Positions 10,440 to 25,447 of a stretch of DNA of 64,000 nucleotides are shown here, piece after piece; position 1 is the stretch's first letter; every line of letters starts with the position of its first letter. This DNA comes from Dermabacteraceae bacterium TAE3-ERU27. Lineage in GTDB: Bacteria > Actinomycetota > Actinomycetes > Actinomycetales > Dermabacteraceae. Position numbers and translations under genes: made by a program. The notes under the pieces were generated by a model. The model did no database searches, was not told the DNA's origin, and saw only the letters and a program-made list of their open reading frames with translations. The stretch lies in NCBI GenBank assembly GCA_019218415.1, contig JAHUUL010000002.1, positions 310,001 to 374,000 on the forward strand, given 5' to 3'.

Positions 10440-12923
10440 TTAGCGCTGTCTGGTGACGGTCAGCGTGCCGTCTGGTTTCACGCCGATGGTGATGTGCCCG
10501 CCGGTGTCGGTGCGTAGCGCCCTATCGGCCGGGACCAGTGCGAGCGCACGGGCGGTGGGGTGGCCGTAACGGTTGTGCCTACCCGCACTGTAGATGCCGA
10601 GTTCCGCTTGCAGGGCCGCGTATAGCGGCGGGTACTGGTGGGCTGAGCCGTGGTGGGATACCTTCACCACCCGTGCGGGGCGGGCGTCGGCGGTGATGCG
10701 GCGTTGGCCGTCCTCTTCAAGATCGCCCAGGCTCACCAGGCTCAGGTCTGCCCCGTCCCAGTCGGCCCGGATGGAGAGCGAACAGTCGTTCGTTTCAGAG
10801 GCATCATTCAGTGCGGCCTGCGTTATCTCGCTGTCGCTGCGCGGCCAAAGCACCTCTATGCGCACCCTCCCCATCGTCTCCACGTATCCGGTGTAGGGCA
10901 CGAGGTCTGCGTTTGCCTGTTCGTCTAGCGGGCAGGCCCAGGTTTTACGGGGCTGCCATTTTCCGGTGAGCGCGCCCGCCGCGCCGATGTGGTCGCGGTC
11001 CGGGTGGCTGCGGATGAATAGGTCTATCCGCTCGATACCGAAGTGTTTTAGACATCCTGCGAGGGTGGCTTCGTCCTCTCCCGTGTCTATCAGCGCGGTG
11101 GCGGCGCCGGGCCCGGTGCTATCGCGCAGCAGGATCGCGTCTCCCTGGCCGACGTCGCAGGCGGCTATCAACCAGTCCTGCGGGGCCGCTGCGGGCAGGG
11201 TACGCCAGCCGAGAACGCCGACCAGTGCCGCGGCAAGCAGCAGGGCGAGGCCGGTCAGGAGGCCGCTGGAAATGTTTTGCCCGTGCCGAGGCCGCGTAAG
11301 GTGCCTGGGGTGGATTGGGCGGCTGCGTCGGATTGGCCTCCGGGGAGGTTGCTGGGCGAGGTTTATTTCCCGGGTGGTACTTTCCACGTATTTCTTCTCC
11401 AGTCTGCGCAGGTAGCTGCCTCCCGCTAGCGCCGCAGCGATAAAGATGGCGGCGATGGCGAACGTGCCGGTGTTTCCCGCCGGTAGCGGGATTCGGGAGA
11501 GCGGCAGCCGATCTGCCGCGAGCGCTATCTGCCTGATCGGTTCCGCGCAGAGACCGGCGGCGTGGAATAGCACCGTGGCGATCCCCGGCTGCAGGGGCGC
11601 GGTGAGGGTGGCTGCCAGGCCGAGCACGGTCACGGCGCCGACAAACGGCGCGGCCGCCAGGTTTGCGGGCACTGCCCAGAGCGATGTTTCTGGGTTGAAG
11701 CGCAGCAGCACCGGAGTGCAGGCGGCTTGCGCTACCAGCGGCAGCGCTATTGCGTAGGCATACTTTTCGGGCAGCTGCAGGGATTCGTTTAGCAGCCGTG
11801 CGCAGGGTTTAGCGCAGGTGATGATGGCTGCGGTGGCAAGCACGCTTAATACGAATCCGTAGGAGGTAACCGTTTGCGGATCCCCCAGGCACCAGACGGT
11901 TACGGCTAGCGCCAGTGCGGTTAGCGGGGCGGGACGCCACCCCAGGTACTGGCTTATCAGTACGGGGACGGCCATGGTTGCCGCGCGTTGCACGCTGGGT
12001 TCGTTACCAACCAGTTGCAGGTACCCGTACGCGGCCAGGGCCGCGAGCATGACGCGCATTTTTCGGGGAACTCCGCTCAGCAGGAGCGGCACGTGCAGGG
12101 TGGCCATTACCAGGGCCAGGTTTGCTCCGGATACCGCCACCAGGTGGCCGAGGCCGCTGCGCTGCATGGCGACTTCTGTTTCCGGGGCAAGGCCGTCGGT
12201 GTCCCCGTACGCCATCCCGCGCACGAGGGCGGCGCGGTCTGCGGGCAGAGACTCGCTGGCCGCCCGCGCGTCCCGGCGTAGCCTCTGCCGCCAGGTGGGG
12301 CCGGGCACGATGACGCGGGCGGTTTTTACGGTGAGGATCAGGTTGCCGCGCCAGGAGCGGATTGCGCCCCGCACTTCTAGCTTGCTGCCAGCACCGGCGT
12401 TGGCGAGCACTTCGTGCGCCTGCGTACCGGGCTTTGCGCGCGCTATCGCCTCGGCTGCGCTCACCGGCCAGCTGCTCCCATCCAGCAGCCTGGCCCGGGC
12501 GCTGAGCGCACCGTTTGGTTTGCGTACCGGATCGGTACGCAGGATCAGCGCATGAGTCGCGGTGCCGGTTTCTCGGGCGTAGCCGGTTTTGGCTTGCGCC
12601 ACCTGCCCGGCATGCCAGATTGCAAGCAGCCCCGCTGCGCAGGCCAGCACCAGCAGCGGCCATTTGCTTCCCTCCGGGGCGGGAAGCGCGGTGAGCGCGG
12701 GCAGGGATAGAAAAAGCAGCAGATAGGGGTAGGGCCAAGGCGTGGCAGGGGCGAGCGCCAGCGCGGTGAGCGGCCAGACCATTAACGCCACGCTGATAAG
12801 CCGATAGTCCCTGGGCGGGCGGCGGGCGATAGTGCCACCGCCGGTGGGAACGTTTCCCGTGTTTGCAGCGCTGTGTGCTGCGGTTGCCTGCCGATTCTGC
12901 GGCGCTTTAGTTGACCCGCGCAT
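10440..12923 (-). CDS. comEC: DNA internalisation competence protein ComEC/Rec2
   Basis: Polytopic membrane channel for single-stranded DNA import in natural transformation, 827 residues. N-terminal membrane spans and a soluble OB-like segment (about 100-200) precede the Competence domain, marked by GLGHLVAVSGANLALV and many hydrophobic spans (about 250-510). The C-terminal metallo-beta-lactamase domain has ALIDTGED, the metal motif SHPDRDHIG and VSHHGSAHQ. All domains are full length with no frameshift, so transformation capacity is possible although other pilus genes are not in the window. It overlaps the comEA end by 17 bp and is probably translated from the same mRNA. Confidence 0.94.
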   Translation of the reverse strand: MRGSTKAPQNRQATAAHSAANTGNVPTGGGTIARRPPRDYRLISVALMVWPLTALALAPATPWPYPYLLLFLSLPALTALPAPEGSKWPLLVLACAAGLLAIWHAGQVAQAKTGYARETGTATHALILRTDPVRKPNGALSARARLLDGSSWPVSAAEAIARAKPGTQAHEVLANAGAGSKLEVRGAIRSWRGNLILTVKTARVIVPGPTWRQRLRRDARAASESLPADRAALVRGMAYGDTDGLAPETEVAMQRSGLGHLVAVSGANLALVMATLHVPLLLSGVPRKMRVMLAALAAYGYLQLVGNEPSVQRAATMAVPVLISQYLGWRPAPLTALALAVTVWCLGDPQTVTSYGFVLSVLATAAIITCAKPCARLLNESLQLPEKYAYAIALPLVAQAACTPVLLRFNPETSLWAVPANLAAAPFVGAVTVLGLAATLTAPLQPGIATVLFHAAGLCAEPIRQIALAADRLPLSRIPLPAGNTGTFAIAAIFIAAALAGGSYLRRLEKKYVESTTREINLAQQPPRRPIRRSRPIHPRHLTRPRHGQNISSGLLTGLALLLAAALVGVLGWRTLPAAAPQDWLIAACDVGQGDAILLRDSTGPGAATALIDTGEDEATLAGCLKHFGIERIDLFIRSHPDRDHIGAAGALTGKWQPRKTWACPLDEQANADLVPYTGYVETMGRVRIEVLWPRSDSEITQAALNDASETNDCSLSIRADWDGADLSLVSLGDLEEDGQRRITADARPARVVKVSHHGSAHQYPPLYAALQAELGIYSAGRHNRYGHPTARALALVPADRALRTDTGGHITIGVKPDGTLTVTRQR

Positions 12924-13653
12924 GTTCGCTTAGCTTCGCCGCGAGCTTCTTGCCTATCCCCTTCACCCTGGTTAGTGACGCGACGGAGCGAAAGGGGCCG
13001 TTCTTTTCTCTGTCTGCCACGATTCGTTTCGCTAGGGCGGGCCCGATTCCGGGTAGCGCGGTGAGCTGCTGCTCCCCCGCGCTGTTCAGGTCTACCGGTC
13101 CTGCCGGGGTGCCGACGCTACCCGTGGCATCCTCCGCCGCACCCATCGCACCGTTTAGCGCTCCGGGCGGGAGCCGCTCCCCCGCTCTGGGCAGGTGTAT
13201 CTGTTCCCCGTCGCGGACGGGCCGGGCCAGGTTTACGGCCTGCCTGTCGGCGCTTCCCGTGAAGCCGCCGCTCGCCTGCACCGCGTCGGCCACGCGCGCG
13301 CCGGGGGCGAGGCGCACCAGGCCGGGGCTTGCCACCTGTCCCGTCACGTAAACGGTGACTTCCTGGCCAGTTTCCGCGCCTTCGCTCCGGCCCATACGGT
13401 CAGGGCTCTTTTGCTGCCCAGCACTGCCCATCTCACCGCGATTTAGCTTCGCTTCAACTGCCGATGCTTTTGCTTCACGTCTTTCTCCGGGTACTAAAAC
13501 CTGTGTTTGGCCGACCTGCTTCACCGGAGCGTAGTGTCCCCTTGCGGGCGGATAGATGGTTTCAACGCCCACATCAGTTAGCAGCAGCAAGCCTAGCAGC
13601 GTGACAAGGATCAAACTTACAGGTATAAGTATACGTAAAGGAAAACGTGACAT
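12907..13653 (-). CDS. comEA: Competence DNA receptor ComEA
   Basis: Membrane-anchored double-stranded-DNA receptor for transformation, 248 residues. One N-terminal membrane span (about residues 6-25), a flexible linker, then an SLBB-like domain (VYVTGQVASPGLVRL to GEQIHLP, about 104-158) and a C-terminal helix-hairpin-helix pair (VDLNSAGEQQLTALPGIGPALA and SLTRVKGIGKKLAAKL, about 186-244) that binds DNA. First gene of comEA-comEC-holA. The DNA upstream (13654-13868) is abruptly AT-rich and begins the island described below. Confidence 0.94.
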   Translation of the reverse strand: MSRFPLRILIPVSLILVTLLGLLLLTDVGVETIYPPARGHYAPVKQVGQTQVLVPGERREAKASAVEAKLNRGEMGSAGQQKSPDRMGRSEGAETGQEVTVYVTGQVASPGLVRLAPGARVADAVQASGGFTGSADRQAVNLARPVRDGEQIHLPRAGERLPPGALNGAMGAAEDATGSVGTPAGPVDLNSAGEQQLTALPGIGPALAKRIVADREKNGPFRSVASLTRVKGIGKKLAAKLSEHARVN

Positions 13654-13868: not shown

Positions 13869-14579
13869 ATGCTTGAAGATATTTTACTTGAAATTACACG
13901 CCTCCCAACCTCTCACCCCTATACATTTCCCATAATCATGGCGTTGTTGACGTTAGCGATAGTCTACCGGCTAACTAACCTATACATCGATAGAGGGAAA
14001 AGAAAAGAAGACCTAAGGGAAAGAAACAGAAAAATAACAGAATGGTCACTAGTCCTATCGCCACTTACCCCACTAGCGGTATTGATGCTAATAAAGCTTT
14101 ACTCAAAATCGCCCTGCGCACTTTTCTTTCTTTTGCTCACTGCACTATTAGGTGCACTATGCACTTACTGGATTATTAACAGGAGCAAGGGTGATGCACC
14201 GTTCGAAATTAATATAAAGTCAGCAGATAGCGCAGGCACAGAGACCACCGGCTACCTAGCATCATTCATATTTCCTCTTATCACAGCAGAGGGATCTAGC
14301 GCCCAAGACTGGGCAGCCTATATAATATTTGTTATAATCTACATCGAAATTCTTACTAGTAGTGAACTTTTGTCGGCAAACCCAATGCTATACATTCTCG
14401 GTTACCGCATATGGAAAATCAAATACACGAGAGAAAAGTCAGAAGAGATTGAAACGGGATACCTTATAGCAAGAAGATCTCGAAACGTGACAAAAATACC
14501 CCTAGAAACCCACCCGATCCTCGTAACACGGGATGGGAAAACTTTTTTTGAAAACACCCCCAAAAAGGCAGAGTCATGA
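13869..14579 (+). CDS. KwaA-like membrane protein of a Kiwa-type defence operon
   Basis: 236-residue membrane protein. Hydrophobic spans are at about 19-38, 60-78, 83-103 and 127-168 (the last probably two passes). The stretch GYLASFIFPLI (128-138) and the loop SANPMLYILGYRIWKI (169-184) match my recollection of KwaA proteins, where a late membrane segment is followed by an NP...GY signature; a cytosolic tail of about 50 residues follows. In Kiwa, KwaA is the membrane sensor and KwaB the DNA-binding effector. ATG 14576 of the partner overlaps this stop as ATGA, so they are co-translated. GC is far below the flanking genes, a sign of transfer. Family assignment is from pattern memory, not a search. 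Confidence 0.62.
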   Translation: MLEDILLEITRLPTSHPYTFPIIMALLTLAIVYRLTNLYIDRGKRKEDLRERNRKITEWSLVLSPLTPLAVLMLIKLYSKSPCALFFLLLTALLGALCTYWIINRSKGDAPFEINIKSADSAGTETTGYLASFIFPLITAEGSSAQDWAAYIIFVIIYIEILTSSELLSANPMLYILGYRIWKIKYTREKSEEIETGYLIARRSRNVTKIPLETHPILVTRDGKTFFENTPKKAES

Positions 14580-15613
14580 ACAATACACCCCCAGAATGGC
14601 TAGAAATAGACGAAAATAGCAGGGTCCCTCCCATATTGATTGTCGGGCGCATTACCACAGGCAAGGACGGGAAGGGAGTTGAACTACGCAGAGCAAAAAC
14701 GACAGTTGAATTGCGCGACCGGCTATTCGATATAGTGTCCTCTTTCCTTGAGGTCAGGAGTAATGATGAGTTTATCCCGTATTCGGAAACTAGACTATTG
14801 GAGAGCGCTCAGACATTTACTGGATACTTAAATGAGGCCATAGGTCGCGACGAAGAACATGAAGCAAACGCTATCGATAAAGAAAGCATTATATTAAACA
14901 GACTCTCTCTCATACGAAGCGATGAAGATGACATCCTCCTACAAGAAATAAAGAAAACTAATTTCACTTTCTATATAATTTTAGCAAGGAATTCCGATGG
15001 GGAGGATGTGGCCTATGTAAGAAAACTTAGGGGATTTCATCTAGCAAATAATCCCAGTAGGCGCGGGCATTTTTTGATAAACATGGTACAAAATGACTAT
15101 CTGGATGTGCTTAACTCACCCATATTTAAACTAGATGAAAAATTCGATTTCGCAATAAAATTAGATTTAGCGAACAATCAATCCGAGGTTGCGATTTGGA
15201 ATGTCAATAGCTTTTTGGAAGTATTTATAGATACAGCAGCTCTCCAGAGCGCCGTCCCACGCTACCTTAATCACATTGAGGACGCACTACCCTCCCCGTC
15301 GTTATCGAACAAATCAAAAATAGCCATACTAGACGCTGCAAGAAAATCAGTCCGCACCGCAAAACAAGTTAGGCGACTGTCTAGAGTGGACTATCTGGAA
15401 CGGGTTACCTTGGAGAGGCTAAATAGCTATCTTGAAAAAGTTAAGGAAGTATCCAAGGGGATAAGCACAACTAACACGGGCATAGAACTTGAACGCGATG
15501 CAGTAGATATTTTCTTAAACCTCCTAGAGCAGCGGTACTGGAGGGGGCATTTTAATGATTCTATCTATGAGTCGCAGGCCCATATTGAGAACAGGAAACT
15601 CGCTGATAGCTAA
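14576..15613 (+). CDS. KwaB-like DUF4868 protein of a Kiwa-type defence operon
   Basis: 345-residue soluble protein with the look of DUF4868 (KwaB). The central block IFKLDEKFDFAIK (183-195) plus VAIWNVNSFLEVF (205-217) matches the family pattern of an Asp after a hydrophobic strand and then 'FE.iF'. A helical segment (245-295) and the C-terminal LERDAVDIFLNLLEQRYWRG...IYES (305-332) correspond to the family end. In characterised Kiwa systems KwaB binds DNA and acts together with membrane KwaA against phage. Here it is coupled to the upstream membrane gene by a 4-bp overlap and shares its AT-rich codon use (many ATA and AGA codons). No catalytic motif is evident. Confidence 0.7.
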   Translation: MNNTPPEWLEIDENSRVPPILIVGRITTGKDGKGVELRRAKTTVELRDRLFDIVSSFLEVRSNDEFIPYSETRLLESAQTFTGYLNEAIGRDEEHEANAIDKESIILNRLSLIRSDEDDILLQEIKKTNFTFYIILARNSDGEDVAYVRKLRGFHLANNPSRRGHFLINMVQNDYLDVLNSPIFKLDEKFDFAIKLDLANNQSEVAIWNVNSFLEVFIDTAALQSAVPRYLNHIEDALPSPSLSNKSKIAILDAARKSVRTAKQVRRLSRVDYLERVTLERLNSYLEKVKEVSKGISTTNTGIELERDAVDIFLNLLEQRYWRGHFNDSIYESQAHIENRKLADS

Positions 15614-16466: not shown

Positions 16467-17447
16467 TTACGCCACCGGGTGGCGCTCAAAGTATTCCGCC
16501 ACCCGCGCCAGGCCTTCGTCAAAGCTGACGGCGGGAGTCCACCGCAGGCGCTCGCGCACCCGCCGCTGGTCGAACCAGTGCGCGGTGGAAAGCTGCTCGG
16601 CCAGGAATTCGGTCATGGGCGGCTCGTCCTCTCCGGGACGCACCTCCCAGATCTTTTCCACCAGGCGTCCGGCCGCCTTTGCCAGGGGCGCGGGCAGGTT
16701 CAGGCGCGGGCCGGGCACTCCTGCGGCGCGGCAGAAGCCCTCCATTAGTTCGGCCACGGTGCGCGGTTCCCCGTTCGTGATCACGAACGATTCGCCGTGC
16801 ACCTCTTCGATCCTGTCCAGACCTGCCACGATCGCATCCGCCGCGTTATCCACGTAGCAGGTGTCGATCAGCGCCTGCCCGCCGTCCAGCAGCGGCAGCG
16901 TGCCGCGCTTACCGCGCTCCACGATGCGAGCCACCAGCTGGGTGTCTCCGGGGCCCCACACGATATGGGGACGCAGACTGGTTACCATCAGGTCGTCGCC
17001 GTCGGCGGCCATTGCCAGCACCTCGGCGGCGGCCTTGGTGCGGGCGTAAGGGCCGCGCGCGGTTTCCGGGTCCGCGGGCAGCTCCCCGTCCCCGACGATG
17101 GGTTCGCCGCTGTGCGCCACGGACGGAGAAGAAATGTTCACCAGGCGTTTCACCCCGGCGGCGCGCATCGCGTCGATCAGGCGCTGCGTGCCGCCGATGT
17201 TGACCTCGCGGTACTCTTCCTCCGGCCCGGAGATGGAAACCTTAGCGGCCAGGTGAATCACGGCGTCCTGCCCGGCCACGGCGCGGGCCAGGTCGGCCTC
17301 GCTGGTGAGCGAGCCTTGCACGGTCCGCACGCCGGGGATCTGGGCGTCACGCCGCTGGAATGCCGTTACCTCGTCGCCGCGATCGCGCAGGGTTTCCGCT
17401 ACCCGGCGTCCGAGCATGCCGGAGGCACCGGTTACCAGAACCTTCAC
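16467..17447 (-). CDS. oleD: NAD(P)-dependent 2-alkyl-3-oxoalkanoate reductase OleD
   Basis: Extended short-chain dehydrogenase that reduces the beta-keto acid made by OleA to the beta-hydroxy acid in long-chain olefin synthesis. 326 residues. Rossmann motif VTGASGMLGRRVAETL at 4-19, the conserved VIHLAAKVS, and the catalytic Tyr/Lys pair in GPYARTKAAAE. It overlaps oleBC by 4 bp and is last in oleA-oleBC-oleD. On sequence alone it could be called a 3-beta-hydroxysteroid dehydrogenase-like protein; the operon makes OleD the better call. Confidence 0.87.
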   Translation of the reverse strand: MKVLVTGASGMLGRRVAETLRDRGDEVTAFQRRDAQIPGVRTVQGSLTSEADLARAVAGQDAVIHLAAKVSISGPEEEYREVNIGGTQRLIDAMRAAGVKRLVNISSPSVAHSGEPIVGDGELPADPETARGPYARTKAAAEVLAMAADGDDLMVTSLRPHIVWGPGDTQLVARIVERGKRGTLPLLDGGQALIDTCYVDNAADAIVAGLDRIEEVHGESFVITNGEPRTVAELMEGFCRAAGVPGPRLNLPAPLAKAAGRLVEKIWEVRPGEDEPPMTEFLAEQLSTAHWFDQRRVRERLRWTPAVSFDEGLARVAEYFERHPVA

Positions 17448-20095
17448 GGCCGTCCCGCCTTCCTGCCGCGCAGGGTCGATTCGGCCCAGCGCGCCAGGGC
17501 GGCCCGGTCAATCTTCGAGTTGTGGCGGATGTCGGTGGGAAGCTGGCGCGTCGTGTAGACGGCCGCCACCGGGTGCCCGGTCGCGCTGAACACGCTGCGG
17601 CGCACCGCAATAGCCAGATCGCTGGGGGCAGGGCGGGGAATGTCGCTGCGCCTGCGGTGCATGGTGCCGTCGGGCTCGACGAACACCACCAGCTGCTGGG
17701 TACCGAGCGGGCCGACCGCGCACACTCCGGCGCGCTTCACGCCGCGCGTCTGCTCGACGGCCTTCTCGATAACGACGGGCGTGGAGACACCCTCCGGGGT
17801 GGTCATCACGTGCGCCATGCGGCCTTCGATCCAGAGACGGCCCTCCGCGTCCAGGTGGCCGACGTCGCCGGTGGCGTGCCAGCCCTCGTATCGCGAAGCG
17901 TGGCGGGTGGTGTCCCACAGCATCAGGTAGCTGTCGCGCATGTGCGGGGCGCGCACCAGCACCTCGCCGGAAACTTCCGGCTCGGTGGTCGGTTCGTCGC
18001 CGGTACTCGCGTCCTCGGTAAGCGGCGCGATGGCTACTTCCACGCCGTCCAGGGGGGTGCCGACGCAAACGCCGTTGCCTTCCCCGGCGGTGATGATACC
18101 GTCCAGATCGATGGCGGTCACGGCAAGACATTCGGTCATGCCGTAGGGCGTGAGCGCGGTGGCGTTCGGCAGCACGTTCTTCAGTTCGCGCAGGCGATTC
18201 GCCGGAATCGGTGCCCCGGCGGAAAAGAAGCTGGGGACCTTCGCGAGAGCGGCCCGCTGCGTTTCGCTCAGCTCCCCCGCCGTGGCGAGGATGTTGATGA
18301 GCGCGGCGGGCGCGGTGAAGATCGCGGGCTCTCCCAGCGAAGCCACGGCGTCGGCGAGCGCCGACGCGGTGAGGGTCGCGGGGGCGGTCACGTCCATGTC
18401 GGGCACCACGCAGGGCGCGCCGATGGCGGGGCCGAGCAGCGCGAACGGCGCGAACCCGGCAACCAGCCCGCGTTCGGGGCGCATCCCGAGCACGGTGCCG
18501 ACGGCATGGAACATCGCGCCGAGCTGGCGGTGCGTGTAGACGGCTCCCTTGGCTGGGCCGGTCGAACCGGAGGTGAACAGGATGGCGGCGTCATCGTCCT
18601 GTTCGGGCCAGGGGCCGAGCACGGTTTCGTCAAGCGCCAGCAGGTTTCGGCCCTCCACTGCGAGCTGCGCCAGGGAGGTTTCCACGCCGAGCGCGATGCG
18701 GTCGAGGCTGGGCAGTTCCCGCACGCTGATGCGCTGCCCCGGCCAGTTCAGGCTGCGGGCGGCGGCGAGCGCCTTTTCGATGCCGATGATGTAGTCGGGA
18801 TGGCTGCCGATGACGGCGCGGGTAAGTCCCTTAACGCCCAGGCCCGCGTCGGCCACCACAGCCACCGCGCCGATGCGCAGGCAGGCATAGATGGTAGCGG
18901 TCAGGTCCGCGCCGGGCGGGACGAGCACGTTTACGCGGTCTCCGGGGCCGACGCCGTGGGCCAGCATGCCCGCGGCGAGTTCCTTCACGCGGGTGTCGAG
19001 CAGCCGCCAGCTGATGGTGCGGCCCGTGTGCATTTCGACGACTGCCGCGTCTTCCGCATGCTGCGGATCGGCGGCCAGTTCGCTGATGCGTTCGCCCAGG
19101 TGAATCGGTTCGCGCTGCGTGGCGTAGCTGGAGACGCTGCGTTCTTCGCGCGGCTGTTCGCCGTAGTTGTCCGCCAACCATTTGGCGACGGTTCCCGCGA
19201 CGTCCGCATCGTCCCACACCAGGTGGGAGGCGTTTTCGTAGCGGTGCACGTCGGCGTGCGGGATGCGCTGCAGCAGGTCTTTGAGGTAGCGGTCGGAGAA
19301 CACGACGTCCCGCGGGCCCCACACCATCAGGGTGGGTACGTCAAGCTCCTTGACGCCCTCCGCCAGGCGCTCCAGGGTGGGGCGGGAGGGGTGATCGTAG
19401 GTGGCAGGGATGTCGGCCACGAAGTCTTCGATGCCCCAGCGGCGCGGCCTGCCCTTGTAGGGGGCCAGGTATTCCTCTCGGACCTGCTGCGGCAGCGGCG
19501 GGTCGGAAAGCGACAGCGTGGTGCGCAGGAACGCGTTGGTGCGGGAGGTTGCGGCGGCAAGCATGCCGGGGGCGGTGGCGAGCTGCAGGGAGGCCGGGAG
19601 TTTTTCGTCCAGCCCCTGATAGATCGCGGTGTTGGTGAGAATGACGCCCGCCAGCTGGTCGCGGTTATCGAGCGCCCAGCCGAGCGAAACGATGCCGCCC
19701 CAGTCGTGACCGACGGTGATCACCTTGCCGCGCAGGTCCAGGGAGTCGGTCAGCAGCGACAGGTCGGTGATGCGGTCCTGCAGGCGGCGTACGGTGCCGG
19801 TGCGCTCGCTGTAGCCCATCTCCAACTGGTCTACCGCGATAACGCGCCAGGGGATGTCGGCCTGCAGGAGGCTGCGGAACAGGTAGGAGTAGGTGGGGTT
19901 GCCGTGCACGCACAGCAGGGTGCCCTTGGGCTCGCTGACGCCGCGCTCCGCGAGCAGCGGCGCGTTATCGAGCAGGTGCCAGCGGAGCTGTTCTCCGTGC
20001 ACGTCGCGCGCCCGCACGATCCGGTGCAGGCGGTGATCCACCCCGTACTGGCGCGGGATATCGACGATGTCCTCTACGTTGCGGCGGTTTACCAT
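17444..20095 (-). CDS. oleBC: OleBC fusion: beta-lactone decarboxylase + beta-lactone synthetase
   Basis: 883-residue fusion of two olefin-pathway enzymes. Residues 1-310 are the alpha/beta-hydrolase OleB: VHGNPTYSYLF, nucleophile Asp131 in VGHDWGG, and the late His in NASHLVWDD; OleB decarboxylates the beta-lactone to the cis-olefin. Residues about 335-883 are the AMP-forming OleC: ATP loop FTSGSTGPAKGAVYTH, YGMTECLAV and TGDVGHLDAEGRLWI; OleC closes the beta-hydroxy acid to a beta-lactone. Natural OleBC fusions are known in actinobacteria. The ATG overlaps oleA by 7 bp, with GGAG five bases upstream. No truncation is visible. Confidence 0.92.
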   Translation of the reverse strand: MVNRRNVEDIVDIPRQYGVDHRLHRIVRARDVHGEQLRWHLLDNAPLLAERGVSEPKGTLLCVHGNPTYSYLFRSLLQADIPWRVIAVDQLEMGYSERTGTVRRLQDRITDLSLLTDSLDLRGKVITVGHDWGGIVSLGWALDNRDQLAGVILTNTAIYQGLDEKLPASLQLATAPGMLAAATSRTNAFLRTTLSLSDPPLPQQVREEYLAPYKGRPRRWGIEDFVADIPATYDHPSRPTLERLAEGVKELDVPTLMVWGPRDVVFSDRYLKDLLQRIPHADVHRYENASHLVWDDADVAGTVAKWLADNYGEQPREERSVSSYATQREPIHLGERISELAADPQHAEDAAVVEMHTGRTISWRLLDTRVKELAAGMLAHGVGPGDRVNVLVPPGADLTATIYACLRIGAVAVVADAGLGVKGLTRAVIGSHPDYIIGIEKALAAARSLNWPGQRISVRELPSLDRIALGVETSLAQLAVEGRNLLALDETVLGPWPEQDDDAAILFTSGSTGPAKGAVYTHRQLGAMFHAVGTVLGMRPERGLVAGFAPFALLGPAIGAPCVVPDMDVTAPATLTASALADAVASLGEPAIFTAPAALINILATAGELSETQRAALAKVPSFFSAGAPIPANRLRELKNVLPNATALTPYGMTECLAVTAIDLDGIITAGEGNGVCVGTPLDGVEVAIAPLTEDASTGDEPTTEPEVSGEVLVRAPHMRDSYLMLWDTTRHASRYEGWHATGDVGHLDAEGRLWIEGRMAHVMTTPEGVSTPVVIEKAVEQTRGVKRAGVCAVGPLGTQQLVVFVEPDGTMHRRRSDIPRPAPSDLAIAVRRSVFSATGHPVAAVYTTRQLPTDIRHNSKIDRAALARWAESTLRGRKAGRP

Positions 20096-21114
20096 TCGAG
20101 CTCCAGCATCGCCGTGTTAATGCCGCTGCCCACGCCGAGCAGCACGATCTTGTCTCCCTTTGCGAAGGTGTCTTGCACCTTGGCGAGGGTCATCGGGAGG
20201 GAGGACGGGCCGACGTTACCCCAGTCGGGGAAGGTCACCGGGATCTTGTCGATTTCCACGCCGACGGCGTTGGAGAACGCGCGGGTGTAAACGTTCGAGA
20301 TCTGGTGGGTCACGAAGGTGTCGGCGCTGCGGAAGTCGAAGCCTTCCTCGTGCGCGTCGCGCCAGGCGTCAACCACGAGTTCCAGGCCGTGCTCGAGCAG
20401 GCCCTTGGTGTCGGTGCGCATGTCCCCCATGGAGCCGACGCAGAGCTGGTTGTGCTCGGTGCCCGCGCGGGCGATGCCGCCCTTGATGAGGTGGCCTTCC
20501 GGGTGTTTGTCTGCCGGGCCCACCACTGCGGCGGCGGCGCCGGAGCCGAGGGTGAGGGAGGCGAACTGCATCTGGAAGTCGTCGCGAGCAGCGTCTTTGC
20601 TGTTGAGGCGTTCGATGGTGCGCCGGTGCATTTCGGCGGTGTCTTCGCCGCCGACGATCAGGGCGTATTCGATGTGGCCGCCGTCGATCATGGTGGAGGC
20701 CAGCATGAGCCCGTTCACGAAGCCGAGGCAGGCGTTGGTGATGTCGAAGTCCATGGCGGAGGTCGGCAGGCCCAGCCCGGCGTGGACGGCAACCGCGATG
20801 GAGGGTTCGAGGTGCTTGCGCGTGACCGAGGTGTTGATGATCAGCCCGATCTTGTCGCGCGAAACGCCGCTGCGGGCGATGGCGCGTTCACCGGCGGAGA
20901 TTACGCCCTGGAGCCACCCCTCGTCGTTTTGCCACTGGCGGCGTTCGAAAACACCTGCGACGCGCTGCAGCGTGCCCTTGGGCAGACGCATGCGCTTGCG
21001 GGCGGGAGCCAGCAGTTCGTCCATGTCGTCGGACGTGACGACTACCGGGGCTTCTACCGCAACTACTGAGAGCAGCGAAGAGTTGCGGTAGTGGAATGTG
21101 GTGTTGCCGTTCAA
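20089..21114 (-). CDS. oleA: OleA thiolase: long-chain beta-keto acid synthase
   Basis: Thiolase-superfamily enzyme that condenses two fatty acyl-CoAs head to head, first step of long-chain cis-olefin formation. 341 residues. Catalytic Cys129 in DITNACLGF, His270 in VTHQIS and Asn300 in DWGNVGPSSLPMTLA form the triad. Glu103 in RKHLEPSIA corresponds to the glutamate that distinguishes OleA from FabH. First gene of the oleABCD set, divergent from thymidine kinase across a 217-bp intergenic region. With oleBC and oleD every enzyme step of the pathway is present. Confidence 0.93.
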   Translation of the reverse strand: MNGNTTFHYRNSSLLSVVAVEAPVVVTSDDMDELLAPARKRMRLPKGTLQRVAGVFERRQWQNDEGWLQGVISAGERAIARSGVSRDKIGLIINTSVTRKHLEPSIAVAVHAGLGLPTSAMDFDITNACLGFVNGLMLASTMIDGGHIEYALIVGGEDTAEMHRRTIERLNSKDAARDDFQMQFASLTLGSGAAAAVVGPADKHPEGHLIKGGIARAGTEHNQLCVGSMGDMRTDTKGLLEHGLELVVDAWRDAHEEGFDFRSADTFVTHQISNVYTRAFSNAVGVEIDKIPVTFPDWGNVGPSSLPMTLAKVQDTFAKGDKIVLLGVGSGINTAMLELEW

Positions 21115-21331
21115 TCGCTTACCTTTAGTCGAGGTTTGGTATCCGGTTCATTCTGCCACTTTCCGGCGGATACGTCCGGCCCTGTTGCGTCTGGCACATC
21201 ACCACATATACGCCACGTCACACCGCCGCCCGGTTACCGGCCGGTTAGCGTGGCGTGCGGCCCGCGCCTGCGGCAGCGGGTAGGCTATCGGCGCTAACGA
21301 TATGCGGGGAAGGCTGTTAAAAGAGGGCGTA

Positions 21332-24900: not shown

Positions 24901-25447
24901 TGCGCCACGCGACGTGCAGGGGCTGCACGGCGAGATGAACGTGCTGCGTTACCTGCCCTGCCCGGTGACGGTGCGCGTGACCGGCGGCGCGGAGGCCGAC
25001 GAGGTGCGCCGCGTGGCGCACGCCGCCCGCACCGCGGGAGCGCCGGTCAGGTTCAGCTACGCCGAGGAGCGCCTGGCGGTGCCGGACGTGCCGGGCACGG
25101 TGGAGGACGCCGAGGCTTTCGCGGCCGCGCTGAATCGCGAGGCGGGCTCACTGCGGGTGCGTCTGGTGGGTGGGCCGGGCACGGTGGAGGACGCCGAGGC
25201 TTTCGCGGCCGCGCTGAATCGCGAGGCGGGCTCACTGCGGGTGCGTCTGGTGGGTGGGCCGGAGCTGCCGCTGGACGAGCTGGTGGCCAAGCGCCCCGAG
25301 ATCGCGCTGTTTGCGCAGCCCGTCACCGTGTCGGGCCGGATCGAGATGCTGCCGTTCCTGCGCGAACAGGCGGTTTCCTGCACCGTGCACCGCTACGGCA
25401 ACGCCCTGCCTCACATCGCGCAGATCGAAAAGACGCTGCTTGGCTAG
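21980..25447 (+). CDS. putA: Bifunctional proline dehydrogenase / P5C dehydrogenase (PutA)
   Basis: Converts proline to glutamate in two steps, feeding electrons to the respiratory chain. 1155 residues. Residues about 60-440 form the FAD-dependent proline dehydrogenase barrel (VKVSSIVDHL, INMDMEEYRDL, KVRLVKGANL, YVKLGIAGHNL). Residues about 505-950 form the aldehyde dehydrogenase: VTPPWNFPLAIPTGG, Glu719 in MAETSGKNS and catalytic Cys753 in GQKCSAAS. The C-terminus carries an exact 28-residue duplication (1038-1093). The start is GTG 21980 with GAAAGGA upstream; no ATG in this frame is near. No N-terminal DNA-binding domain, so it is not the regulator type. Single gene closed by a strong terminator. 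Confidence 0.95.
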   Translation: MVNVSDPSRLPSPAEVSDLVAKWVREAAKIPAPAQAQMLADLLKDPQGLDFTVAFVDRVVRPEDRGAAGEELARIAANPPAFLPATLRGAIGAGGALAPLAPGPVVATATRVMREMVSHLVLDARDKQLGAAISRLRADGTRLNVNLLGEAVLGAREAKRRLAGVRRLLAREDVDYVSIKVSSIVDHLALWGADETIEHVVSTLTPLYLDAARAGTRKFINMDMEEYRDLSLTLDVFERLLSQPELHKLEAGIVLQAYLPDSLAAMRRLRRFAKARVEAGGAPIKVRLVKGANLAMERVDASLHGWPLATFSTKEESDAQYKRVLMDSLTPENCRYVKLGIAGHNLFDVAFAHLLGEARGVNEGVEFEMLAGMAPGQARVVRESVGNLLLYVPVVEPKEFDVAVSYLVRRLEENASPENFMSAVFDLERSEELFARERARFAASLDRALNEDAVETNRVQNRLDAAVPAADGAAFSNEPDTDMSTPANQEWARRLTARLRDPEGSGVRGLGRDVAGTVRPASVADVDALLSETLSAGKEWAALDVSERAAVLRRAADVLAERRADLLAVAADETGKALDQGDPEVSEAIDFARFYAESAEKLADRDDITFAPRGLTLVTPPWNFPLAIPTGGVLAALVTGSAVVFKPAPQAMRCGSVIAEALWDAGVPREVLRLVDVPENEVGKALVSDERIDQIILTGAYDTAALFSSWRPGVRIMAETSGKNSIIVTPHADLDLAAKDVAYSAFGHAGQKCSAASLVILVGSVARSRRFRAQLADAVQSLHVGYPEDATVQVGPVIEAASGKLLRGLTELGEGERWLQQPQPLDESGRLWLPGVREGVKEGSEFHLTEYFGPILGIIEADTLEDALRIQNGTDYGLTAGLQSLDPREIDYWCRHVEAGNLYINRGITGAIVQRQPFGGWKRSAVGATAKAGGPNYLVHLADVKDATDLREKDARAWLQAARASDLAHAADFFAPRDVQGLHGEMNVLRYLPCPVTVRVTGGAEADEVRRVAHAARTAGAPVRFSYAEERLAVPDVPGTVEDAEAFAAALNREAGSLRVRLVGGPGTVEDAEAFAAALNREAGSLRVRLVGGPELPLDELVAKRPEIALFAQPVTVSGRIEMLPFLREQAVSCTVHRYGNALPHIAQIEKTLLG
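25091..25258 (+). repeat. Perfect in-frame 84-bp tandem duplication inside putA
   Basis: 25091-25174 and 25175-25258 are identical base for base, each coding 28 residues (PGTVEDAEAF...RLVGG; residues 1038-1065 and 1066-1093). Being a multiple of three it keeps the frame. Identity at every third position shows a recent slippage or unequal recombination event. It lies in the C-terminal domain beyond the two catalytic domains. Confidence 0.97.

Follow-up and report, generated by a model that had tools for sequence, protein, structure and literature searches.

An intact oleA-oleBC-oleD operon under purifying selection in a Dermabacteraceae genus that seems to lack an E1-alpha kept by its relatives

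What would Dermabacteraceae bacterium TAE3-ERU27 make with an apparently complete set of genes for head-to-head olefin synthesis, and from which acyl chains? We analyzed a stretch of 64,000 nucleotides from this organism (hereafter the window), whose genome (1,998,373 bases in 37 contigs, 98.05% complete) is placed in Dermabacteraceae, in the same genus as TAE3-ERU5. Positions 16467-21114 of the window are filled by three open frames on the minus strand, oleA, oleBC and oleD:

20089-21114, minus strand: oleA, 341 aa, predicted head-to-head acyl-CoA condensing thiolase (open frame, NCBIfam, PDB match, conserved residues)
21121-21126, minus strand: AAAGGT, likely ribosome-binding site for oleA (identified by eye)
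17444-20095, minus strand: oleBC, 883 aa, predicted fusion of beta-lactone decarboxylase and beta-lactone synthetase (frame, domains, relatives, AlphaFold)
19160-20095, minus strand: putative OleB half with an alpha/beta hydrolase fold, spanning residues 1 to ~312 by an estimated boundary (Asp131, Asp263, His291)
17447-19099, minus strand: putative OleC half with the fold of an AMP-binding enzyme, spanning residues ~333 to 883 by an estimated boundary (ATP loop at 508, Lys861)
16467-17447, minus strand: oleD, 326 aa, predicted SDR-type 2-alkyl-3-oxoalkanoate reductase (Tyr134, Lys138)

The oleA frame starts with TTG, 6 nt downstream of AAAGGT, and the genes overlap by 7 nt (oleA/oleBC, ATGGTAA, 20089-20095) and by 4 nt (oleBC/oleD, GTGA, 17444-17447), with neither a stop nor a frameshift in any of the three frames. 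These frames and overlaps confirmed what the initial annotation had proposed, i.e., three overlapping ole genes encoding all four activities in the compact order oleA-oleBC-oleD; moreover, the catalytic residues that it had named are all present at the positions it gave, and each one tested was identical in 48/48 relatives. The A-BC-D order on a single strand, oleD included, is that of a Micrococcales-type ole operon. Among 50 named loci, 48 share it, and contig ends truncate the remaining two. The gene names oleA, oleBC and oleD are already in use for such operons (PMC7158056).

OleA carries the Glu/Cys/His/Asn set of Micrococcales-type operons (Glu103, Cys129, His270 and Asn300), all four identical in 48/48 relatives, a count made after the contig-cut loci L042 and L045 had been dropped. 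It scored 415.9 bits against the NCBIfam model PRK09258 (cut-off 285), and in a PDB sequence search its residues 9-341 aligned to Xanthomonas campestris OleA chains at E 1.4e-75 (3row). In OleD, Tyr134 and Lys138 lie within YARTK and are conserved in 48/48 relatives, while Gly10 (same in 45/48) and Ser107 (43/48) vary. The best NCBIfam model for this protein was OleD, at 300.4 bits under a cut-off of 580, followed by a second OleD model at 230.1 of 580; since the OleD model also gave below-cut-off matches in 14/14 control genomes, such a match proves little by itself. Within the window's genome the ole copy reached 300 bits on this model and the next-best frame 77.7.

In OleBC, Pfam placed a hydrolase domain and then an AMP-binding domain in the single 883 aa frame, OleB first. 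The OleB half has His64, Asn66, Asp131 (within GHDWG), Trp132, Asp263 and His291, and the OleC half has the ATP loop TSGSTGPAKG at residue 508 together with Glu655, Asp744, Arg759 and Lys861; all of these single residues were identical in 48/48 relatives. Asp131, Asp263 and His291 presumably form the OleB triad, their roles being assigned from haloalkane dehalogenase chemistry. Among NCBIfam models, a general fatty acid CoA ligase scored highest for the OleC half (340.2 bits, below the cut-off of 478), and the two OleC models scored 263.4 of 900 and 235.7 of 850; the OleC and OleD equivalogs, which represent Xanthomonas and Shewanella groups, did not reach their curated cut-offs, so the proteins are not filed under them. 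An AlphaFold model of OleBC built from 25 sequences had a mean pLDDT of 89.2 and a pTM of 0.89, and the best 50 Foldseek matches of the whole model were adenylate-forming enzymes or nonribosomal peptide synthetase pieces holding such a domain; thus the structural comparison supports the OleC half only. The OleB half is putatively assigned from its sequence and conserved positions, and the PDB sequence search returned none named OleB or OleC in the best 60 of 256 matching sequences.

The initial annotation had singled out the OleBC fusion as a noteworthy feature. It is the usual Micrococcales form (PMC7064751; see also PMC7158056) and is common across the family, which led us to reject it as a novelty: with the fused protein as query over whole genomes, 43 of 47 family genomes had OleBC as a single near-full-length frame, three had it in fragments (G027, G028 and G030) and G045 had none. 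In all 50 named loci the matched B and C parts share one frame, a count biased by the fused query with which the loci were found and including the two contig-cut ones. Going by record names, a fused OleBC was also seen outside Micrococcales, under Acidimicrobiia/Acidimicrobiales, Nitriliruptoraceae and Kineococcus (L026, L029, L035, L037, L038 and L042, four of the six being metagenome assemblies). PMC7158056 reports ole clusters in no Gram-positive order other than Micrococcales.

The nearest named locus is that of Dermabacteraceae bacterium TAE3-ERU5 (L009), with OleBC 99% identical, followed by Brachybacterium, Dermabacter and Helcobacillus loci at 63-67% best-segment identity and by the remaining actinobacterial loci at 41-54%, which include relatives from Rothia, Microbacterium and Arthrobacter (L016, L019 and L014; 49-51%). 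Full-length OleA was found in 45 of the 47 family genomes, missing only from G030, which is 74% complete and has its OleBC fragment at a contig edge, and from G045; across the order, OleBC was matched at E 1e-80 or better in 165 of 396 genomes. The nearby gene order thymidine kinase, ole, VKOR, comEA recurs in 9/9 Dermabacteraceae loci tested (counting L007, where only a 21-residue stub of thymidine kinase remains at the contig edge) and in 0/5 loci from other families. This family-wide neighborhood fits vertical descent within Dermabacteraceae. G045 (genus g6), the sole well-assembled family genome without OleA and OleBC, also had the most PF00676 matches (seven) and the most acyl-CoA dehydrogenase matches (six), and may be a deep or misplaced lineage.

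Several features of the surrounding DNA were observed alongside. Two overlapping plus-strand genes at 13869-15613 (42% GC, against 63% for the window) look from their sequences like a Kiwa anti-phage pair: PADLOC called the first KwaA (E 2.8e-16) and left the second unmatched, while Pfam PF16162 identified the second as KwaB (35.8 bits, cut-off 26.3). Neither gene was matched between VKOR and comEA in TAE3-ERU5 or the eight other family loci tested, and the pair therefore looks recently inserted. The adjoining comEA (12907-13653, minus strand) is 76% identical to its TAE3-ERU5 counterpart, compared with 97-99% for VKOR, thymidine kinase and PutA; flanking DNA may have been exchanged along with the insertion. 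At 25094-25261 (plus strand), the gene for a PutA-like proline dehydrogenase/aldehyde dehydrogenase contains an exact 84-base tandem duplication (84/84 identical) that adds 28 residues in frame; the TAE3-ERU5 locus ends just before this site.

The ole operon is thus real, intact and ordinary for a known operon type. In published systems OleA condenses, OleD reduces, OleC forms a beta-lactone and OleB decarboxylates it to a cis internal alkene, and olefins were detected in every ole-bearing genus tested, including Rothia, Microbacterium and Arthrobacter (PMC7158056). By this scheme, head-to-head joining of two long-chain acyl-CoA by OleA would give a 2-alkyl-3-keto acid, which OleD would reduce to the 3-hydroxy acid. 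Within the fusion, the OleC half would then use ATP to close a beta-lactone, and the OleB half would remove CO2 to leave an internal cis-alkene. From homology we infer that the operon is active, that its likely product is a long-chain internal alkene, and that this alkene is probably held in the membrane.

A pathway stopping at the beta-lactone deserves consideration, because homologues of OleA, OleC and OleD also serve lipstatin-type pathways (PMC7064751). However, the oleACD-type clusters for lipstatin and nocardiolactone, which have these three homologues in common with our locus, are described as being without oleB (PMC7064751), whereas here an OleB half is present, fused and seemingly intact, its tested catalytic positions identical in all 48 relatives; furthermore, tailoring genes such as those for a P450 or a glycosyltransferase were not seen among the five neighbors scanned. 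We thus regard a beta-lactone end product as very unlikely, and since OleB is present, an alkene is the expected end product. Of the other known systems, the oleABCD genes of Xanthomonas and Shewanella encode the same four activities, with OleA matched to X. campestris chains, but keep oleB and oleC separate, whereas here they form one protein and the NCBIfam OleC/OleD cut-offs are unreached. The Micrococcus luteus-type Micrococcales operon, known to us by description, is alike in gene content, order, OleB-first fusion and catalytic positions (PMC7158056, PMC7064751), but apparently differs in the supply of substrate.

Both OleA specificity and acyl supply influence the olefin type: Micrococcales olefins are mostly anteiso-rich C27-C29, while Kocuria and Kytococcus also produce straight-chain olefins (PMC7158056). 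When the three-gene E1/E2 cluster for the branched-chain complex was deleted in M. luteus, olefins became undetectable in both media; supplying short branched acids to the mutant brought them back, and the branched acids still present in it were attributed to side activity of other complexes (PMC5857589). Within Dermabacteraceae, anteiso acids dominate in Brachybacterium faecium (PMC3035206). Three relatives examined, G043, G042 and G023, each have a row of E1-alpha, E1-beta and E2 genes (Pfam-confirmed for G043 only). At E 1e-20, an E1-alpha frame besides the 2-oxoglutarate-dehydrogenase-sized one was found in 45/45 genomes of other genera and in 0/2 genomes of the window's genus. A looser search (E 1e-3) of the window's genome, which keeps the 2-oxoglutarate-dehydrogenase-sized E1 frame, gave only a weak extra E1-alpha match, in a 605-aa frame. 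E1-beta was likewise not found in this genome, as transketolase-C matches were confined to frames of 713 and 605 aa, which appear from their sizes to be transketolase and DXS.

Other parts of acyl metabolism were surveyed as well. The acyl-CoA dehydrogenase family was missing at E 1e-10 from six of 47 genomes (both of the genus, G039, G040, G042 and G043), with none found in the window's genome. The latter keeps an aceE-fabD-fabH-acpP-fabF row (FabH over its NCBIfam cut-off, KAS II by PF02801, the rest recognized by eye). It also has two long-chain acyl-CoA ligases, with scores slightly above the model cut-off for one and slightly below it for the other.

The missing E1 is only tentatively identified as the branched-chain one. 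Its best names are pyruvate-type: the G043 E1-alpha received a pyruvate-type NCBIfam name below cut-off (395.9 of 411.35), and its best PDB match was a pyruvate dehydrogenase E1-alpha (177.9 bits, against 157.3 for branched-chain ones). We take it to be branched-chain on two grounds: G043, G042 and G023 also have an AceE-like frame, recognized by eye, and B. faecium is rich in anteiso acids (PMC3035206). Consequently, the initial annotation's expectation of C27-C31 alkenes is weakened, as it derives from branched-primer species, while the genus seems to be without the E1 of that route; its broader claim of a long-chain alkene stands as a probable one, by homology, from a complete pathway with conserved positions, order and purifying selection. 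Since the genus is apparently without a branched-chain 2-oxoacid dehydrogenase, the acyl chains would be straight-chain products of the type II fatty acid synthase or would be built on imported branched short acids. Taken together, we consider it highly probable that the locus is a Micrococcales-type ole operon yielding an internal cis-alkene, probably membrane-held, with chains that are straight or built on imported branched acids.

The missing E1 could also mean little or no product, given that loss of the branched-chain complex left M. luteus without olefins (PMC5857589), and the apparent loss of both E1 and the acyl-CoA dehydrogenases would suit an operon kept by chance after its substrate supply was lost and now decaying. 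Selection argues otherwise. Between the window's genome and TAE3-ERU5 (L009; L088 for fab genes), dN/dS was 0.054 for oleA, 0.041 for oleBC and 0.050 for oleD, against 0.031 for tdk, 0.039 for fabF, 0.041 for part of aceE, 0.057 for fabH, 0.084 for fabD, 0.131 for acpP and 0.143 for VKOR. The constraint on ole equals that on core lipid genes, with values as low as those of fabH, fabF and aceE, and together with the intact frames and overlaps this leads us to reject decay, which we hold to be extremely improbable. In the same comparison, the DNA of fabD (L087:2163-3122, outside the window) was 82% identical (dS 0.79), while the adjoining fabF, acpP and aceE were 96-98% and fabH 94% identical; a recombination tract across fabD and part of fabH is possible.

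For an intact and selected operon, two products can be weighed. If the missing E1 is the branched-chain one, the genus keeps ole without the usual supply, and straight-chain olefins or imported branched precursors are predicted. It is a tentative and somewhat doubtful proposal that this small-genome genus, having lost that E1 and possessing no acyl-CoA dehydrogenase, is a natural branched-chain-dehydrogenase-null olefin maker, its fully constrained ole run on straight-chain or scavenged acyl groups and its profile unlike the anteiso C27-C29 one typical of Micrococcales. The product may instead be ordinary, i.e., anteiso or iso C27-C29 olefins, with branched primers obtained by import, by side activity of other 2-oxoacid dehydrogenases or by another enzyme, which we rate as a serious possibility, though short of an even chance. 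Several lines of evidence are in its favor: i) the M. luteus mutant regained olefins on short branched acids, and side activity of other complexes was invoked for its residual branched acids (PMC5857589); ii) B. faecium, of the same family, is anteiso-dominated (PMC3035206); iii) the window's genome keeps the 2-oxoglutarate-dehydrogenase-sized E1 and, by eye, an AceE-like frame; iv) the missing E1, with its pyruvate-type best names, may not be branched-chain. On the other hand, this E1-alpha is in every genome of other genera and absent from both of this genus. Our literature search, mostly of open-access texts, found no lipid data for the genus among the matches listed, none of which included TAE3-ERU5; matches for Dermabacter with alkene, or Brachybacterium with olefin and oleA, appear unrelated by title.

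With this operon, a known pathway gains one more family. The natural branched-chain-null reading matters for the contrast that it would provide: M. luteus needs its branched-chain complex for olefins (PMC5857589), whereas this genus is seemingly without that complex and yet has ole under strong selection. If olefins are made unaided, the actinobacterial pathway would not depend on branched primers, and olefin function could be examined separately from branched-chain membranes; if supplied branched acids are needed, ole would mark a dependence on scavenged acids.
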